Of a stretch of 64,000 nucleotides of DNA, positions 54,003-61,529 are shown one piece after another (within the stretch, counting starts at the first letter, position 1; each line of letters starts with the position of its first letter). Below the pieces are notes generated by a model, which made no database searches, was not told the origin of the DNA, and saw only the letters and a list, made by a program, of their open reading frames with translations. The translations under genes and the position numbers were made by a program. Source of the DNA: Chryseobacterium binzhouense. Lineage in GTDB: Bacteria; Bacteroidota; Bacteroidia; Flavobacteriales; Weeksellaceae. The stretch covers positions 310,001-374,000 of the forward strand of contig NZ_VKOG01000003.1 in NCBI RefSeq assembly GCF_007474545.1, read 5' to 3'.

Positions 54003-55007
54003 TTACGGTGCTTCTATTTTTGCTAAAATTCTGCTAACAATTTCTTCGGCTGAAATTTCTTCAGCTTCCGCTTCAAAAGTCAGTCCGATTCTGTGTCTTA
54101 AAACATCCTGCGCCAAAGCTTTTACATCTTCAGGAATGACAAATGCTCTTCCCTTAAGGAATGCATACGCTCTGGAAGCAATTGCCAGATTGATTGATGC
54201 TCTTGGAGAAGCTCCGAAACTGATGTAATTTTTCAAATCAGAAAGTCCGTATTTTTCAGGGAAACGGGTAGCAAAAACCATATCCAGAATGTATTTTTCA
54301 ATTTTTTCGTCCAGATAAATCTGATTAACCAAAGATTTTGCTTCCACAATATTCTCAAGAGAAATTACAGGTCTTATTTCCGGCTGATGCGAGGTAGACA
54401 CCATTCTCATAACCTTTCTTTCGTCCTCAAATTCCGGATAATCTATTTTACATTTCAGCATAAAGCGGTCACTTTGTGCCTCAGGCAAAAGATAAGTTCC
54501 TTCCTGATCAATTGGGTTTTGGGTAGCTAAAACCAAAAACGGTTTCGGCAATGGCATTGTTTCGTCCCCGATGGTTACCTGCTTTTCCTGCATTACTTCC
54601 AAAAGAGCCGACTGCACTTTCGCAGGAGCACGGTTGATCTCATCTGCTAAAACAAAGTTGGCAAAAACAGGACCTTTTTTTATGGAAAAATCGTTGTCCT
54701 TGATATTGAAGATCATCGTTCCCACAACATCGGCAGGAAGCAGATCCGGTGTAAACTGTATTCTTGAAAAATCCCCATGAACGGCCTCTGCCAAAGTCTT
54801 TATCGCTAAAGTTTTTGCCAGACCCGGAACACCCTCCAAAAGAACGTGACCATTTCCCAAAAGACCGATCAGAAGACGGTCTATCATATATTGCTGCCCT
54901 ACGATTGCTTTATTGATTTCCTGTCTCAGAAGATTAAAAAAGTAATTTTGCTCTTTCACTTTTTCCGTAAGCTGGCGGATGTCTTCTGCTTGATATGAAT
55001 CTGACAT
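54003..55007 (-). CDS. MoxR-family AAA+ ATPase
   Basis: A 334-residue AAA+ protein. Walker A is LLEGVPGLAKT (about 55-65), Walker B is FVLADEINRAPAKVQSALLEVMQE, sensor 1 is LATQNPIDQEGTYLLPEAQ, and the C-terminal lid carries FGASPRASINLA. MoxR ATPases work with VWA proteins to mature or remodel partners. It is the first gene of a seven-gene operon (moxR, DUF58, DUF4381-like, batA, batB, batC, batD). The CRISPR locus begins about 200 bp upstream of its start, so the two transcription units are in tandem on the minus strand. Confidence 0.95.
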   Translation of the reverse strand: MSDSYQAEDIRQLTEKVKEQNYFFNLLRQEINKAIVGQQYMIDRLLIGLLGNGHVLLEGVPGLAKTLAIKTLAEAVHGDFSRIQFTPDLLPADVVGTMIFNIKDNDFSIKKGPVFANFVLADEINRAPAKVQSALLEVMQEKQVTIGDETMPLPKPFLVLATQNPIDQEGTYLLPEAQSDRFMLKCKIDYPEFEDERKVMRMVSTSHQPEIRPVISLENIVEAKSLVNQIYLDEKIEKYILDMVFATRFPEKYGLSDLKNYISFGASPRASINLAIASRAYAFLKGRAFVIPEDVKALAQDVLRHRIGLTFEAEAEEISAEEIVSRILAKIEAP

Positions 55008-55173
55008 AGTTTAATTTAAAATAATGGGTAAATTTCTGATAAATACTTGCATTAATCAACATAATGAATGCCATTTTTGAGTTAAAGTTTGTTAAAAGTC
55101 TCGAATATACAGGAATTACAAAGCAACTGTTTAATTTTCACATTCCTACATCTTCTTTTATGTACCAAAGAAT

Positions 55174-55206
55174 AACCCTGTCAAGGTTTTGAACCTTGAC
55201 AGGGTT
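55174..55206. repeat. Perfect 15-bp hairpin at the trailer end of the CRISPR array
   Basis: AACCCTGTCAAGGTT, loop TTG, AACCTTGACAGGGTT. It ends one base before the detached half-repeat at 55208. Seen from the minus strand it lies downstream of the array and could terminate the pre-crRNA, although the T-tract is weak. I recall a similar palindrome as a dispersed intergenic repeat in Chryseobacterium genomes, which is unverified. Confidence 0.8.
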
Positions 55207-55207
55207 T

Positions 55208-55290
55208 GTTGTGTTTACCCTCCAAATAACATTCATCAATTCTTTTTAAAAATATAAAAACTCATTGATAAAATTGAGAACAGTCGCAAC
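55208..55290 (-). repeat. Decayed CRISPR repeat and detached half-repeat
   Basis: 55208-55226 matches the first 19 bases of the CRISPR repeat exactly. 55270-55290 matches the last 21 bases with one mismatch. The two halves are 43 bp apart, so the span is 46 bp longer than one repeat. The unit 55254-55290 is in register with the array (67 bp before the first intact repeat) but its 5' half is lost. The remains suggest a duplication, deletion or insertion at the distal end of the array. Confidence 0.85.
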
Positions 55291-55759
55291 CAGAAATGAT
55301 CTTCACCTAGATTCTTTTTTGTTGTGTTTACCCTCCAAAATTGAGAGCAGTCGCAACTATTGGGGAACAGGTAACAATGGAAATAAGGTTGTGTTTACCC
55401 TCCAAAATTGAGAGCAGTCGCAACTTTATTATCTTGTTCATGCTTTTCTCTAAGGTTGTGTTTACCCTCCAAAATTGAGAGCAGTCGCAACCCTATAACT
55501 TTTTTCAATAGTTATTTTATAGTTGTGTTTACCCTCCAAAATTGAGAGCAGTCGCAACTCACACGGTCAATATTTCAAGGCAAGATCCGTTGTGTTTACC
55601 CTCCAAAATTGAGAGCAGTCGCAACGATGGCAAAGCTGAAGACGGTAAGCCGCTTGTTGTGTTTACCCTCCAAAATTGAGAGCAGTCGCAACAAACAACT
55701 ACTACGGTTTCCAATCTCAATAGTTGTGTTTACCCTCCAAAATTGAGAGCAGTCGCAAC
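55254..55759 (-). CRISPR. Type VI-B CRISPR array
   Basis: Seven identical 37-bp repeats (plus strand GTTGTGTTTACCCTCC ... GCAGTCGCAAC) start at 55321, 55388, 55455, 55522, 55589, 55656 and 55723, exactly 67 bp apart. One degenerate terminal repeat is at 55254. The seven spacers are all 30 bp and all different. Ends GUUGUG and CGCAAC pair. The minus-strand form (GTTGCGACTGCTCTCA...) resembles the direct repeat of Bergeyella zoohelcum Cas13b as I recall it. Decay at the left end and the position after cas13b both argue for transcription on the minus strand, with the leader at about 55760-55909. Confidence 0.97.
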
Positions 55760-55810
55760 CTCAATATTTTTGGGTTGCAAAATACTCGGTTTTATTAGAG
55801 TGTAAAGCCT

Positions 55811-55830
55811 GTTTTTAGGATTCTAAAAAC
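55811..55830 (-). promoter_or_regulatory. Hairpin in the CRISPR leader
   Basis: GTTTTTAG / CTAAAAAC with a 4-nt loop, between the cas13b stop codon and the first repeat. It may end the cas13b mRNA or mark the leader. A TATTTTG word on the minus strand about 30 bp before the first repeat is one base short of a -7 element, so the array may have its own promoter. Confidence 0.4.
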
Positions 55831-55909
55831 ACGGCAAATTTCTTTATCTTGTTTGTAAAATTAGCTTTTTTTGTTTTTACCGGTGATGTCAAAGAGCGTT
55901 ATTATTTTA

Positions 55910-58900
55910 TTATAAAATCTTGTTTACAATATTAATGTATTCTTCAATTGATTTTTGTTTTCTTACTTTGCTTTCTTCTTTAGCCCAATATTTATCTACA
56001 ATAAAACTGTTTAATTGTTTTTCTTTATCCTTTTCCAAATCTTGTGTATTGTAAAAAGTTTTATTTGATTTATAAACAAACTCTTCTTTATGCTTCTCTG
56101 TCAATTTTTCTATACGTGTAGCTTTGGCTTCGTGAAAGTTTTTTTTCATAAAAGTATCTTTGTCGTGTATTCCCAACATAAAACTTTCTAATACTTTTTC
56201 GGGCATTTTGCCTTTCTCGTCTAAAGATTCGTTGAGTTTAGATTTCACTTCATTTTTCACAAAAACTTTTTCAAAATCTATTAATGACTGATAATAACTT
56301 TTATCTAAAGATGGCAGGTTGAAATGTAACGCGATGTTCCTCACTTGTTTTTTTACATCTATACTTTTATTGAAATACTTTCCTTGGTTGTTATGGTCGT
56401 AAAGTTCTACAATTTCGGTAAGGTCTATTCTGTTATTTTTGGTGATTACTGTTTTATGTTTCCAAATAAAGTATTCTTCTAGTGCCATTATGCATTTTGT
56501 AAACCGAACAGAGGAATTGATAATGTGATTATTCACTTTGTTTATATCTTCCAATTTTAGGATATTTGAATTTTTAAAATCATGAGATAGGTTGATGATT
56601 TCTTTATCAAATATTTTATTGAATTTATCATCATATCTGGTTTTACCAGCAATATTTTCTAGATATTTTTTTAGATTGCTTAAAATATTATTATTGTCAT
56701 TTCCGTTGGCTTTTAGTTCAAAGAAACGATCTACCTTATTAAAAGGAATAATAAGATTATATGCAGAATTATTTTCATTTTGTTTGCTAACTGTAAACAA
56801 TATATCTCTATTCAATACTTTATCTACTCTTTCTTTTAGTTCGTTGTTTTCTTTATTAAGGTATTTAAAAGCGATTTCATATAACAGACAGTCTTCTAAT
56901 CTATTCGCATTTAGTTTTGCAAAGAGATGTTTGTGCGCTTTTGGTTCTTTGTAGTTTATTTTGTTTTTATAATAATATTCTTCTACCAAAAACTGTTTAT
57001 TTCCGTTTACATATTGGTATTGTATTTTATTATTCTCTATAACGATATTGGTTGTATTCTTTGAGATAAACTCTCTAAAAATACTGTGATTAAGATAGAT
57101 ATTACCCGATTCTAAATGATTTTCAATGTAGTTTTTTAATACTTCATTTTGATTGTTGCTTTTTACTTTTGGCACTAAAGAAAATTGTTTAAACAATTCT
57201 TTTGTTATTTTATAGAAATCATTCAAATCTTTACTTTCATTGAATAATTCTTGAAATTCTGCGTTTTGAAAAAATTTTTTACTTTCAAAAAGGGTTCGCA
57301 ATTTCTGTTTATAAATATCATCGTCTTTACCATTAAATAAAAACATCCACTTAGAAAAATTATTTACTTCATCTTTACTTATGTTGTTTGCTTTGTGATG
57401 TCCTTCTTTTTCAGTAGTTTCAAAATAGGCATCTTTAAAATACATAATGTTACAGGCTTTGCGAATAAATTGCAGTTTGAACTGTCTGCCTTTATTTTTC
57501 TTCTCAAAAAAATCGAGCGTTCCGTTTTCATCGGCTTGGTCTTTCAGCTTATTGTATCTTTCTTCCATAAACTCTGCTTTTTTAAGAATTAGCTCAAATG
57601 CAGAAAATTCAGGCAGATTGTTTTGTTTTGCTTCATTGTATAGATGCAGAAGTCTTTTGGGGAAAACTTTTAAAAGTTCAGTTTTTTGGCCATCGGTTAT
57701 TGTTTCATTATTTAGTAAAATTTCCTTGTATTCATTATATTTAGTATGTTTAAATGCAATGAAATCATTTAAAAATTTAGCTCCTTCAGTATTTCCTTTT
57801 AAAGCATCTTCTAGAAAATAAACAATAATGTTTTTTTGCAAGGCAATAACTCTTTCTTGTCCTGCTATTTTTATAAAAACGGCATTGTTTTCTACCAAAA
57901 ACGGCATTTCCCAGTCTGGATATTGGTTTAGATGTTCTTTATAGGTTTTAAAGTAAACAATTTTACCTCCGTCGTATTTTAGTTTATCTTTTTCTTTTTT
58001 GGATAATGTGTTAATATGTGAGTTCTGTTCCAACATATCATAAAACTGATACATTTTAAACTGGGCATCTTCTCCAAAATAATTGGTTTCTGCCAAATAT
58101 CGAATGGCAAAAAGTAAAAAGCGGTCTTGGTTTCTGCAATTAGAAGTGTAAATAGATTTTTCTTTTATCCTTTTTTTGAGTTTATCGGTTTTTTCATTAA
58201 GATTAAAATCTTTGAAAAAATATTTATTCGTTCTGTTTCTTCCATTCCAACTATCAAAAGCAGTAGTTTTGATAAAGTTATATGTTGTATAATTTAAAAT
58301 TTGGTTTTTAAATTTTCCTGTATTTCCACCAAAAGTATCTTTATTTATTTGATATTGTTTGTTATTTGGCTCTGCTTGATTCAATAAAACTCTAAAATAA
58401 ATATGCTGAAACTCTATATTTTTTTCTATAAAATGGTCAAAGAGTTTATTTTCTTTTTGTTCAGATTTTCTAAATAATTTGTTGAGAGCATATTGTAAAA
58501 AAGCAGTTTTAAGGTTTTGATAATTTGTTCTGTTTTGTACATCCTTTTCACTTAATACATCATAGTAGCTAAAAACATAAGGAAAGTATTTTTGAATTTC
58601 TTGTATCTCAATTTTTAGCTTTAGAGGGTTTACCATTTCAGAAGGATAATCTCTTTCAATGAGATTTTTATCTGTTATTTTGTCTTTGTTTTCATCAAAT
58701 TCTAAAAAAGGTTTCCACGCTACAGGATATTTATTTAAATACTGAATAATATCTCTAAAGTTTACTAAATTTTGATCTTCGTGTTGTATATCTTGGCTAC
58801 TGAATTTTTTTGAAAAAACAGTAAAAACATTAATTTTTGCTTGATCTTCGGCAGTACCATTTTTTTTGAAACCACTGATTTTTGGGATTAATTTGTTGGC

Positions 58901-59785
58901 TTCATTTTTATAAAGAAATAATGATAATAAAAACAAGCATCCGTTAAAAGAAAGATAGTTGCCTTTTTCAATTTGCAAAATTTGATGCGAATTTTGTTCA
59001 CTTGGGTTTAGCTCCCAATCTATATCTTCTTCTACATTGTTAAAAAGTAAAAAATCAATAAAGCCATCTAATTTTTCAAAATTCAAATCAATATAGCCTT
59101 TAATGTTTTTCTGTTTTTCGTTCAACGTTCTTTCTACTAATTTTCCATTGACCTTAGTTTTAGTATATAAAGTTTGATAAAAAACTTCTTTTGAAAACGG
59201 AAGTATAATAGAATTTAGATTATCTATTAGAAACTCGATAGTTGGTATTTCATTTTTTTGTTCGTTATTCTTTTGTATTTCCTTTTTTTGATAAGCTAAT
59301 ACTAAAGCCAGTGTAAAACTTTCTTTTAAAAACGGAACTATTGCCGCTTTTATTGGATTATCATTTTTATTAAATCGGATGACATCAAACTGATGGATAA
59401 AATGACAATTTATGTTTCTAACAGCATCTATTAAATAGAAAAGAAAATCATTTTTTATGTCTTCTTCTCTTTCAGTTTTTGTATTGCAAAAAAAACGATT
59501 GGGGTCTATTCTAAAATTAAAATTTTCTTTATGCAAATTTTTAAATCTTGTTGGTTTATCATCTGAATTAAATTTAAAAATTTCTTTAGTATCAATGTTT
59601 TTAAAAGCATGACCTAAACAAAAATAATGCAACTGTTGATTGCTTGCTGCATCTGTACGACTTTGCTTTTTTTGTTGATAATTGTTCATTGCTTTTTCTG
59701 CAACAGAACCAATAATCCCTTTATTATTGAAAATAGAAATAAAATTCTCCTCAATCTTTTTTTGATTTGTGAATAGTGTACTCAT
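55910..59785 (-). CDS. cas13b: CRISPR-associated RNA-guided ribonuclease Cas13b
   Basis: A 1291-residue type VI-B effector; family members run about 1100-1300. Both HEPN RNase motifs of the R-x4-H type are intact: RNINCH (Arg123-His128) near the N-terminus and RNIALH (Arg1149-His1154) near the C-terminus. This N- and C-terminal placement is the Cas13b hallmark. The protein is very Lys/Asn-rich. It should process its own pre-crRNA and, on binding target RNA complementary to the spacer, cleave that RNA and bystander RNA. The csx27-like gene lies 13 bp upstream and the array 150 bp downstream. The DNA is visibly more AT-rich than neighbouring genes, suggesting acquisition by transfer. No cas1 or cas2 is near. 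Confidence 0.96.
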   Translation of the reverse strand: MSTLFTNQKKIEENFISIFNNKGIIGSVAEKAMNNYQQKKQSRTDAASNQQLHYFCLGHAFKNIDTKEIFKFNSDDKPTRFKNLHKENFNFRIDPNRFFCNTKTEREEDIKNDFLFYLIDAVRNINCHFIHQFDVIRFNKNDNPIKAAIVPFLKESFTLALVLAYQKKEIQKNNEQKNEIPTIEFLIDNLNSIILPFSKEVFYQTLYTKTKVNGKLVERTLNEKQKNIKGYIDLNFEKLDGFIDFLLFNNVEEDIDWELNPSEQNSHQILQIEKGNYLSFNGCLFLLSLFLYKNEANKLIPKISGFKKNGTAEDQAKINVFTVFSKKFSSQDIQHEDQNLVNFRDIIQYLNKYPVAWKPFLEFDENKDKITDKNLIERDYPSEMVNPLKLKIEIQEIQKYFPYVFSYYDVLSEKDVQNRTNYQNLKTAFLQYALNKLFRKSEQKENKLFDHFIEKNIEFQHIYFRVLLNQAEPNNKQYQINKDTFGGNTGKFKNQILNYTTYNFIKTTAFDSWNGRNRTNKYFFKDFNLNEKTDKLKKRIKEKSIYTSNCRNQDRFLLFAIRYLAETNYFGEDAQFKMYQFYDMLEQNSHINTLSKKEKDKLKYDGGKIVYFKTYKEHLNQYPDWEMPFLVENNAVFIKIAGQERVIALQKNIIVYFLEDALKGNTEGAKFLNDFIAFKHTKYNEYKEILLNNETITDGQKTELLKVFPKRLLHLYNEAKQNNLPEFSAFELILKKAEFMEERYNKLKDQADENGTLDFFEKKNKGRQFKLQFIRKACNIMYFKDAYFETTEKEGHHKANNISKDEVNNFSKWMFLFNGKDDDIYKQKLRTLFESKKFFQNAEFQELFNESKDLNDFYKITKELFKQFSLVPKVKSNNQNEVLKNYIENHLESGNIYLNHSIFREFISKNTTNIVIENNKIQYQYVNGNKQFLVEEYYYKNKINYKEPKAHKHLFAKLNANRLEDCLLYEIAFKYLNKENNELKERVDKVLNRDILFTVSKQNENNSAYNLIIPFNKVDRFFELKANGNDNNNILSNLKKYLENIAGKTRYDDKFNKIFDKEIINLSHDFKNSNILKLEDINKVNNHIINSSVRFTKCIMALEEYFIWKHKTVITKNNRIDLTEIVELYDHNNQGKYFNKSIDVKKQVRNIALHFNLPSLDKSYYQSLIDFEKVFVKNEVKSKLNESLDEKGKMPEKVLESFMLGIHDKDTFMKKNFHEAKATRIEKLTEKHKEEFVYKSNKTFYNTQDLEKDKEKQLNSFIVDKYWAKEESKVRKQKSIEEYINIVNKIL

Positions 59786-59798
59786 ATTTATGTTTTTT

Positions 59799-60458
59799 TT
59801 AAGCTTTTATTAAATTTAACTTACCATAACTTTCTCTTTCTTGCCCATCGTTAAAATAATTACCTTTTAATATCTTATTTTTAGGATCAAATGTAAGTAT
59901 CGCAATACCATCATGGTTATTGTGTTTATATCTCTCGTTCTCCTTATGAAATTTATTCCCTTTATTTCTATAGTGATAGGTAATTACAAATTCCCCATTA
60001 TCTTTTGCTAATATATCGTGAGTAATACTTTCAGATTCTGATGTTTCGGATTTATTATACTGACTGGGATAAAAGTTTGCTTTTACATGAAATCCATTTA
60101 TATTTTGATGAATTTCCATTTCTATCCATTTTGTAATATTGGGTTTAGTAATGTCATCTTCAATATGGTAATTACTTACCAACTCGCCTGTATATTTTCC
60201 TCGTAAGTCTGGTAAACCTAAAAATTTTAAATACCAATTCCACATTATATATTCGTTAATTAGAGAAAATACTAAAGCCAAAATGGAAGACAGTCCCGCA
60301 ATATCCATTATTAAGTTTACAGCAGAAATATTTGTAAAATCCGTTTTATTAAACAAAATTAAGACACCATATTTAATAATAAGATAAATGACAATTACCA
60401 GACAAGTCATTAAGAAGAGTTTACGAAATGGGTAATACTTAAAGTTTGTTTTCTTCAT
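59799..60458 (-). CDS. csx27: Csx27-like accessory membrane protein
   Basis: A 219-residue protein directly upstream of cas13b on the same strand, 13 bp apart. It has two N-terminal transmembrane helices (about 14-35 and 45-72) and a beta-rich C-terminal domain (about 80-219). Motifs LPDLRGKYTGEL (82-93), a Trp at 111 and SETSESES (138-145) precede further beta strands. Type VI-B1 loci carry csx27, reported to dampen Cas13b activity, and VI-B2 loci csx28; size and position here favour csx27. The 2TM plus beta-domain layout also recalls the Cap15 effector of CBASS, an inference. Confidence 0.8.
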   Translation of the reverse strand: MKKTNFKYYPFRKLFLMTCLVIVIYLIIKYGVLILFNKTDFTNISAVNLIMDIAGLSSILALVFSLINEYIMWNWYLKFLGLPDLRGKYTGELVSNYHIEDDITKPNITKWIEMEIHQNINGFHVKANFYPSQYNKSETSESESITHDILAKDNGEFVITYHYRNKGNKFHKENERYKHNNHDGIAILTFDPKNKILKGNYFNDGQERESYGKLNLIKA

Positions 60459-60482
60459 AATTATTTTCTTTTTAGTTTTTTA

Positions 60483-60490
60483 CAAACATA
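60483..60490 (-). promoter_or_regulatory. -7 promoter element of the csx27-cas13b operon
   Basis: On the minus strand TATGTTTG matches TAnnTTTG, 24 bp before the csx27 ATG. A TTTG lies 24 bp farther upstream, longer than the usual 19-21 bp spacer. Confidence 0.5.
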
Positions 60491-60617
60491 AAAAATAAGA
60501 AAACTTTCCCAATTCAAAAATAACTCTGTTAACATTTCTAAAAATTTTCCTTTCCTACTACAAATAATTGTCATTTTCAGTTTATTAAACTAATTTTGGG
60601 GATTAAAATTCTGCAAA

Positions 60618-61088
60618 ATGAATTATCATTTTCAAGCGCACAGACAAGTCAGAAAAAACCTCTTAGATATTCTTCAAAATACTTCCCACGAAGATCTTTT
60701 GCTGATTCCCGATGGTTTTAACAATAATATTTACTGGAATATTGCCCATACAGTTGCCACACAGCAATTGCTGCATTATTATCTGAGCGGAAATCCTTTC
60801 AGAATAGACAAATACTGGATAGAAACTTACAAAAAAGGAACTTTACCTAACCTGAACGTTCAAAAATCCGAAGTGGAAGATCTTGAATTTTTACTGACCG
60901 AAACTTCAAAAACTTTAATGAAAGATTTTGACAGCGATTTTTTTTCAGATTACACTCCTTACACGACTAGTTTCGGCATGGATCTGAAAAGCATTCAGGA
61001 TGCTATTATTTTTAATAACCTCCACGAAAGTCTGCACTTCGGCTATGCAATGGCGCAGAAAAGAGCCGTTTTGGGAGAAAAAATCTAA
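60618..61088 (+). CDS. DinB-family protein
   Basis: A 156-residue four-helix-bundle protein of the DinB/YfiT-like superfamily. The metal-binding His residues are expected in NIAHTVATQQLLHYYLSG and ESLHFGYAMAQKRAVLG, both conserved regions. Such proteins are often thiol-dependent transferases using bacillithiol or similar cofactors; the substrate is unknown. It is divergent from the CRISPR locus and followed by a four-helix-bundle gene of a different family. Confidence 0.85.
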   Translation: MNYHFQAHRQVRKNLLDILQNTSHEDLLLIPDGFNNNIYWNIAHTVATQQLLHYYLSGNPFRIDKYWIETYKKGTLPNLNVQKSEVEDLEFLLTETSKTLMKDFDSDFFSDYTPYTTSFGMDLKSIQDAIIFNNLHESLHFGYAMAQKRAVLGEKI

Positions 61089-61109: not shown

Positions 61110-61529
61110 AAAATTCAAAGTTATGGCGACTATTAAAAAATTCGAAGATTTAGAAATTTGGAAATTATCCCGAGAACTTTGTAATGAAATTTACATCATA
61201 ATAGAAACAACACCTCTTAAAAATAATTACAGACTTTGTAACCAAATTGACGGTTCTTCAGGTTCAGTAATGGATAATATTGCAGAAGGTTTTGAAAGAA
61301 ATGGAAATAAAGAATTTGTGCAGTTTCTTTCTATTGCAAAAGCATCTTGTGGAGAAACGAGGTCACAATTATATCGCGTTTTCGATAGAAAATTTATTAC
61401 CTCTAAAGAATTTGAAATTTTAAAAGAGAAATCTGAAACTTTAAATAAAAAAATTGGTGCTTTTATTAACTACTTAAAAAATTCAGAACTAAAAGGTTCA
61501 AAATACAACGAAACTAAACTTTGAATTTT
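61110..61529. repeat. 13-bp inverted repeats bracketing the four-helix-bundle gene
   Basis: AAAATTCAAAGTT (61110-61122) ends immediately before the ATG of the gene. Its perfect reverse complement (61517-61529) spans the stop codon. Beyond these the flanks remain partly complementary (GGTTC-AAA on the left, TTTAAACC on the right). The arrangement resembles the ends of a cassette, but the AT-rich words are also common in intergenic DNA here. Confidence 0.6.
61123..61524 (+). CDS. Four-helix-bundle protein (23S rRNA intervening-sequence type)
   Basis: A 133-residue protein. The true start is the ATG at 61123 (MATIKKFEDLEIWKLSREL); the frame extends back into the dinB-like gene in another frame and is rejected. 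KFEDLEIWK, then GSSGSVMDNIAEGFER and EFVQFLSIAKASCGETRSQL, are the signature of the 'four helix bundle protein' family first described from 23S rRNA intervening sequences. The function is unknown, and copies move as small cassettes between loci. It is bracketed by 13-bp inverted repeats and separates dinB-like from rlmB. Confidence 0.9.
   Translation: MATIKKFEDLEIWKLSRELCNEIYIIIETTPLKNNYRLCNQIDGSSGSVMDNIAEGFERNGNKEFVQFLSIAKASCGETRSQLYRVFDRKFITSKEFEILKEKSETLNKKIGAFINYLKNSELKGSKYNETKL

Follow-up and report, generated by a model that had tools for sequence, protein, structure and literature searches.

A 64,000-nucleotide window of the Chryseobacterium binzhouense genome (contig NZ_VKOG01000003.1, positions 310,001 to 374,000) carries, between moxR and dinB, a cassette of two genes and a clustered regularly interspaced short palindromic repeats (CRISPR) array. 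The reading that we modestly favour is that of a type VI-B-like system, in which a divergent Cas13b, an RNase guided by CRISPR RNA (crRNA), would have as its membrane effector an S-2TM-beta protein of the type found in cyclic oligonucleotide-based antiphage signalling systems (CBASS), encoded in the accessory slot. Collateral RNA cleavage, with Csx27 or Csx28 as modulator, is the presumed mode of action of Cas13 systems; the cassette has neither the Csx27 of VI-B1 nor the Csx28 of VI-B2. A Cap15-family accessory in a Cas13b operon would suggest that membrane effectors are interchangeable in Cas13b accessory slots and that RNA-targeting CRISPR and CBASS-type immunity can be wired together, and it offers a two-gene system for a direct test of Cas13b signalling to a membrane partner.

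The coupling of Cas13b to the effector is suggested by gene order. Both genes lie on the minus strand and adjoin each other with a gap of 13 nt, and the open reading frames (ORFs) and coordinates confirm a first-pass annotation of the window in placing cas13b, the upstream gene and the array in one minus-strand unit (Table 1). That annotation also found the DNA richer in AT than its surroundings, as it is: GC content is 26% in cas13b, 27% in the effector gene and 28% in the whole insert, against 34.5% in the window. Outside the antisense of cas13b these two genes are the only ORFs of at least 60 aa in the insert, so that among ORFs of this size it holds no CD-NTase or other cyclase, E1, E2, JAB, Cap2/Cap3 or mCpol gene.

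The upstream gene had been called csx27-like, an identity that is rejected here: Csx27 models miss its 219-aa product, and the Csx27 of Bergeyella zoohelcum, run as a control, matches the PADLOC Csx27 model at 1.3e-77. Csx28 models, which do match a control Csx28, likewise miss the protein, and the insert has no other free-standing ORF of at least 60 aa. In PADLOC the protein is matched by 2TM effector models only (best 2.1e-27); it also matches Pfam Cap15_CD_rec (4.8e-13) and the sequence of the Cap15 crystal structure (5.1e-5). Profile searches therefore uphold the earlier naming of cas13b (model PDLC01469, below) and not that of its neighbour, for which they indicate an S-2TM-beta (Cap15-type) protein with two membrane helices (about residues 10-36 and 46-80) and a cyclic-nucleotide-receptor barrel (about 83-219), which may bind a nucleotide. 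This assignment rests on the sequence matches because, in structure comparison, unrelated barrels (GID4 and designed mFAP barrels among them) reach the same Z as Cap15, and the fold alone is indecisive. Twenty columns are invariant between the protein and six homologues, including E115, Q118, S140, S142, Y161, N165, H182, and Y201.

Known VI-B loci show what the accessory slot usually holds. In the VI-B1 system of B. zoohelcum ATCC 43767 (L040/L085), as here, the accessory gene lies directly upstream of cas13b, the array follows on the same strand, the repeat is similar, long composite repeats are present, and no cas1 or cas2 occurs among the ORFs read; its accessory protein, however, is Csx27 (PADLOC Csx27, tm_4), its repeats are 36 nt, and its long repeats are many and internal. 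A Riemerella locus (L086) likewise combines Cas13b, a membrane accessory protein, and similar repeats, but its accessory is Csx28 (PADLOC tm_HEPN), encoded downstream of cas13b. Csx28 is the mark of VI-B2, and Csx27 is found inconsistently in VI-B1 (PMC8209922, excerpt).

By its sequence the 1291-aa protein is a very divergent Cas13b, an assignment that follows from a match to a single PADLOC model, low identities to other Cas13b proteins, and the longest branch in a tree. The model PDLC01469 matches it at 6.9e-75 (residues 240-1224), and the larger Cas13b models PDLC01468 and PDLC02153 give no match at E <= 1. Those two models match all five other Cas13b proteins tested (Bergeyella, Riemerella, L039, L042, and G127, a genome of the same order); PDLC01469 has no match in seven genomes with VI-B repeats, Bergeyella included, and a faint one to the G127 protein (1e-6). 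Searches with the whole protein find neither a Pfam or NCBIfam family nor a Cas13b chain in PDB, where a 180-aa piece touches Cas13bt3 (E 0.072). In blastp, run on a small set without composition correction, it is 26% identical to the Bergeyella protein over 236 aa (1.3e-7), 22.5% to that of L042 over 924 aa (1.5e-10), 20% to that of L039 over 1117 aa, and 30% to that of G127 over 122 aa; by phmmer G127 is the sole Cas13b above threshold. In a six-row tree its branch length is 3.61, and the tree does not place it, two of the three inner branches being open.

Two R-x4-H motifs named by the first-pass annotation (Arg123/His128 and Arg1149/His1154) are present, and a third, unlisted, begins at residue 80. 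The two named motifs have the form RN-x3-H (123-128 and 1149-1154); in 3 of 20,000 shuffles of the protein this form turned up one time towards each terminus. In one alignment, though not by every method (below), three other Cas13b proteins share R123, N124, H128, R1149, N1150, H1154, and P1158 without change, the reference HEPN residues of the Bergeyella protein being R116/H121 and R1177/H1182. Together with repeats of VI-B type, the PADLOC match supports a VI-B-like reading of what was first described as a type VI-B Cas13b locus.

Downstream of cas13b, the seven identical repeats that had been noticed are 37 nt long and alternate with 30-nt spacers at a period of 67; an eighth, at the end of the array, had not been counted and is a composite of 83 nt in which an insert interrupts the loop. 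A degenerate repeat pattern has seven matches in the window and none in 100 shuffles. At 37 nt the short repeat exceeds by one base the length that is usual for VI-B and that the other loci compared have (36 nt), and spacer length, repeat sequence, and hairpin resemble those of VI-B, with the orientation of the array taken from the strand. Long repeats are already known in VI-B (PMC8209922, excerpt), and the composite repeat thus points to a genuine VI-B array and is no novelty. Among the other loci, with L039 left out for its unread bases, long repeats make up 14 of 28 paired repeats in Bergeyella and 16 of 25 in Riemerella (one of the 25 ambiguous), occur once in L042, at the distal end (1 of 21), and are absent from L038 (0 of 13), L044 (0 of 4), and L043 (0 of 1). 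We reject chance degeneration of the last repeat, since its insert can be aligned with the long-repeat inserts of three other loci and the shared helix carries pair changes: seven copies from four loci (one row shortened) have a consensus fold of 12 pairs, of which four are changed on both sides. Folded alone, the 83-nt repeat is unremarkable (z -1.68; equalled or bettered by 12 of 200 shuffles). Pairing is possible between the leader and the first repeat at the repeat's 5' end (z -2.95), a feature already described in other VI-B systems (PMC13187072, excerpt); the likeness is partial because the inner repeat hairpin persists in the predicted fold.

In the Riemerella anatipestifer array (L086:2634-5222) long composite repeats outnumber short ones, which suggests that growth of an array can multiply its long repeats. 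Within the composite insert here, an AT-rich piece of 28 nt (55250-55277) has matches of 89% identity in many genomes of the genus, all over one query range; they perhaps reflect a single conserved chance match in a core locus.

In relatives the site of the cassette is short and empty. A search for moxR in 59 genomes, the window's own among them, succeeded in 58, and the best 30 loci were taken, 29 of them from relatives. dinB adjoins moxR in 15 of the 29; the remaining 14 have no dinB within 1500 bp and are hence uninformative. Between fixed anchors in the two genes lie 108-111 nt in 14 of the 15 relatives, 370 nt in one, and 5469 nt here. An inserted cassette, as first proposed, is therefore what the comparison shows, and it presumably arrived in a single step by horizontal transfer.

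Precedents for a membrane output come from both sides of the pairing. A pore made of Csx28 depolarises the membrane once Cas13b has been activated (PMC12669027, excerpt), and membrane disruption follows ligand binding in Cap15 and loss of the ligand in its Panoptes relative (PMC12657230, PMC12657218, excerpts), from which the S-2TM-beta protein would most likely be the membrane effector of Cas13b. The array would be transcribed and yield spacer-repeat crRNAs; on a matching phage transcript Cas13b would act as a collateral HEPN RNase; and its activation would cause the S-2TM-beta protein to oligomerise and disrupt the membrane, aborting infection and taking over the role of the Csx28 pore. Least certain of these steps is the trigger, which could be a nucleotide ligand of the barrel, made or removed by Cas13b activity, or direct contact. 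More tentatively, Cas13b RNA cleavage might be relayed through a nucleotide-gated S-2TM-beta protein, giving a class 2 CRISPR system an output by second messenger or ligand depletion like that of CBASS and type III systems; we hold this as a minority possibility. With CBASS systems that use Cap15 the cassette shares effector family, topology, and barrel fold, but its effector is paired with Cas13b and has no neighbouring CD-NTase or Cap2/Cap3. Panoptes is similarly a two-gene operon around an S-2TM-beta effector (OptE), whose partner is the mCpol cyclase (PMC12657218, PMC12657230, excerpts) and not, as here, an RNA-guided RNase. No report of an S-2TM-beta protein with Cas13 appears in the titles or abstract beginnings of the papers listed in searches of open-access literature, and the text of a 2025 classification contains neither 'Cap15' nor '2TM'.

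Several results weigh against a Cas13b system coupled to this effector. The pairing was found once, which is its main weakness: Cas13b searches covered 198, 321, 395, and 395 genomes in overlapping samples, the window's own included, would miss a distant Cas13b, and returned one other Cas13b (G127), which lacks a 2TM neighbour. Of the seven loci found by repeat pattern, four have a readable Cas13b neighbourhood, with Csx27 in two, Csx28 in one, and no accessory in one. The nearest homologues of the effector sit in CBASS-like operons. Whether the HEPN residues align with those of other Cas13b proteins depends on method: aligned in the comparison given above, they are left unaligned by a second mode on six rows, shifted by three in one profile comparison (1.4% probability), and left unaligned in another. 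No protospacer was found: compared by blastn with 50,697 phage records, the array region had seven weak matches, all outside the spacers, and an exact search of viral contigs with three of the seven spacers gave none. Weak matches to the array region (E 2e-4 to 0.01) occur in 81 of 173 other genomes of the genus, none convincing; most overlap the AT-rich composite repeat, and a few touch spacers 1, 4, 5, and 7 with mismatches.

Searches for relatives elsewhere gave no Cas13b in the plasmids and phages searched and no confirmed close relative of the Cas13b or the effector in viral contigs. In the genus genomes searched there is no other Cas13b besides three weak PDLC01469 matches (L012, L013, L014; 5.3e-5 to 3.9e-4), which lie in 271-aa frames. 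A Capnocytophaga cynodegmi genome (L044) has VI-B-type repeats and no match to the Bergeyella Cas13b at E <= 0.01, and a Flavobacterium metagenome-assembled genome (L043) has a Cas13b broken by several stops.

The setting of the effector's homologues gives some substance to another explanation, that an ordinary Cas13b locus lies beside an unrelated S-2TM-beta gene of CBASS-like origin, which works alone or with a distant cyclase, their spacing being accidental. Three plasmids carry the nearest homologues, which in two of them (those two being the plasmids looked at) adjoin CBASS cyclases, and in six loci of five other genomes of the family homologues adjoin E1/E2 (ThiF) or JAB-type genes (Pfam was run on the neighbours of three of the six); the effector could therefore have arrived here as a defence gene in its own right. 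A genome-wide search with the SMODS cyclase profile PF18144 found none, which leaves room for a distant cyclase, as the search is weak because the two plasmid cyclases also miss PF18144, and cyclases other than SMODS were not searched for. Against this stand the same-strand gap of 13 nt, the common low GC, the position of csx27 that the gene occupies, one stretch missing in relatives, and an insert without E1, E2, JAB, or cyclase gene. On balance we give accidental proximity a lesser but real chance.

The 2TM-beta homologues of the genus (L091-L093) lie in CBASS-like operons with E1/E2 and JAB genes, and that of L091 (3007-3585) encodes a DACNG sensor domain protein, possibly another nucleotide sensor or cyclase.

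In a Panoptes-like arrangement, which we judge unlikely, a host nucleotide (e.g. c-di-AMP) would restrain the S-2TM-beta protein until Cas13b activity or infection lowered the ligand, and the protein might also repress Cas13b. In Panoptes the cyclic dinucleotide inhibits OptE/2TM-beta instead of activating it (PMC12657230, PMC12657218, excerpts), Csx27 is reported as a Cas13b repressor (PMC8209922, excerpt), and the homologous L091 operon has its DACNG sensor domain protein; but neither mCpol nor any other cyclase adjoins the effector gene here, and ligand binding is hypothetical. Decay, with an inactive Cas13b and a cassette kept by chance, is improbable: it would fit the great divergence of Cas13b, the failure to find a protospacer, the mere seven spacers, and an HEPN alignment that is not robust, but both ORFs are intact over 4.5 kb, the seven repeats are identical, the RN-x3-H motifs are paired, and the terminal long repeat is conserved.

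A lack of adaptation genes is usual for VI-B. As first noted, none is local: no Cas1 is encoded on the contig of the cassette, and the single Cas1 found in the genome is on another contig. It belongs to a type II locus that also has Cas2 and an array of period 77 whose repeats are counted as 47 nt, and new spacers of the VI-B-like cassette could come from this Cas1-Cas2. Adaptation proteins from elsewhere, as proposed in the first-pass annotation, are thus available in the same genome; their use in trans is open to caution, because the repeat lengths differ. In Flavobacterium columnare a VI-B locus without cas1 and cas2 coexists in one genome with a type II locus that has them and acquires spacers through type II-C Cas1 in trans (PMC8092290, excerpt); its Cas13b has neither csx27 nor csx28, and its repeats have one length, 36 bp, in the II-C and the VI-B array. 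In the other species of that study II-C repeats exceed VI-B repeats by a mean of 11 bp, and with such unequal lengths, the authors warn, cross-talk may fail or the VI-B locus be inactive (PMC8092290, excerpt); the gap of 10 nt here (47 against 37) resembles that of the species so qualified. The type II cas9 (L016:3994-8191) lies in two overlapping frames of 414 and 1008 aa and is therefore interrupted in the assembly; cas1 and cas2 are single intact frames, and Cas1-Cas2 may now mainly serve other arrays, or the cas9 break may be an assembly error.

Table 1. Features of the cassette and its flanks, in window coordinates.
Feature	Position	Strand	Remark
moxR–dinB cassette	55097..60565	.	takes the place of about 109 bp
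Predicted S-2TM-beta (Cap15-type) membrane effector gene, 219 aa	59799..60458	-	ORF list, profile and structure matches
Putative divergent cas13b, 1291 aa	55910..59785	-	begins 13 nt past the effector gene
Leader, cas13b-to-array gap	55760..55909	-	end = TTGCAACC..., capable of base-pairing with the first repeat's 5' end
Repeats (seven identical, 37 nt) with six spacers (30 nt)	55321..55759	-	
Repeat starts	55321, 55388, 55455, 55522, 55589, 55656, 55723	-	
Seventh spacer	55291..55320	-	precedes the composite repeat
Terminal composite 'long' repeat, 83 nt	55208..55290	-	repeat halves split around an insert, homologous to those in long repeats elsewhere in VI-B
Strong 15-pair hairpin	55174..55206	.	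closes the array; terminator-like on both strands
Flanking moxR	54003-55007		
Flanking dinB	60618-61088		

An Rfam scan gave nothing at gathering score and one match below it. About 25 nt before the effector gene, TATGTTTG (60483-60490, minus strand) resembles by eye the consensus -7 box of Bacteroidota promoters. Beyond the cassette, the gap between dinB and rlmB holds a four-helix-bundle gene of the 23S rRNA intervening sequence type (61117-61524). Homologues of it occur in three of the 15 dinB-bearing loci of relatives (L057, L073, L075); the dinB–rlmB spot is thus variable too.

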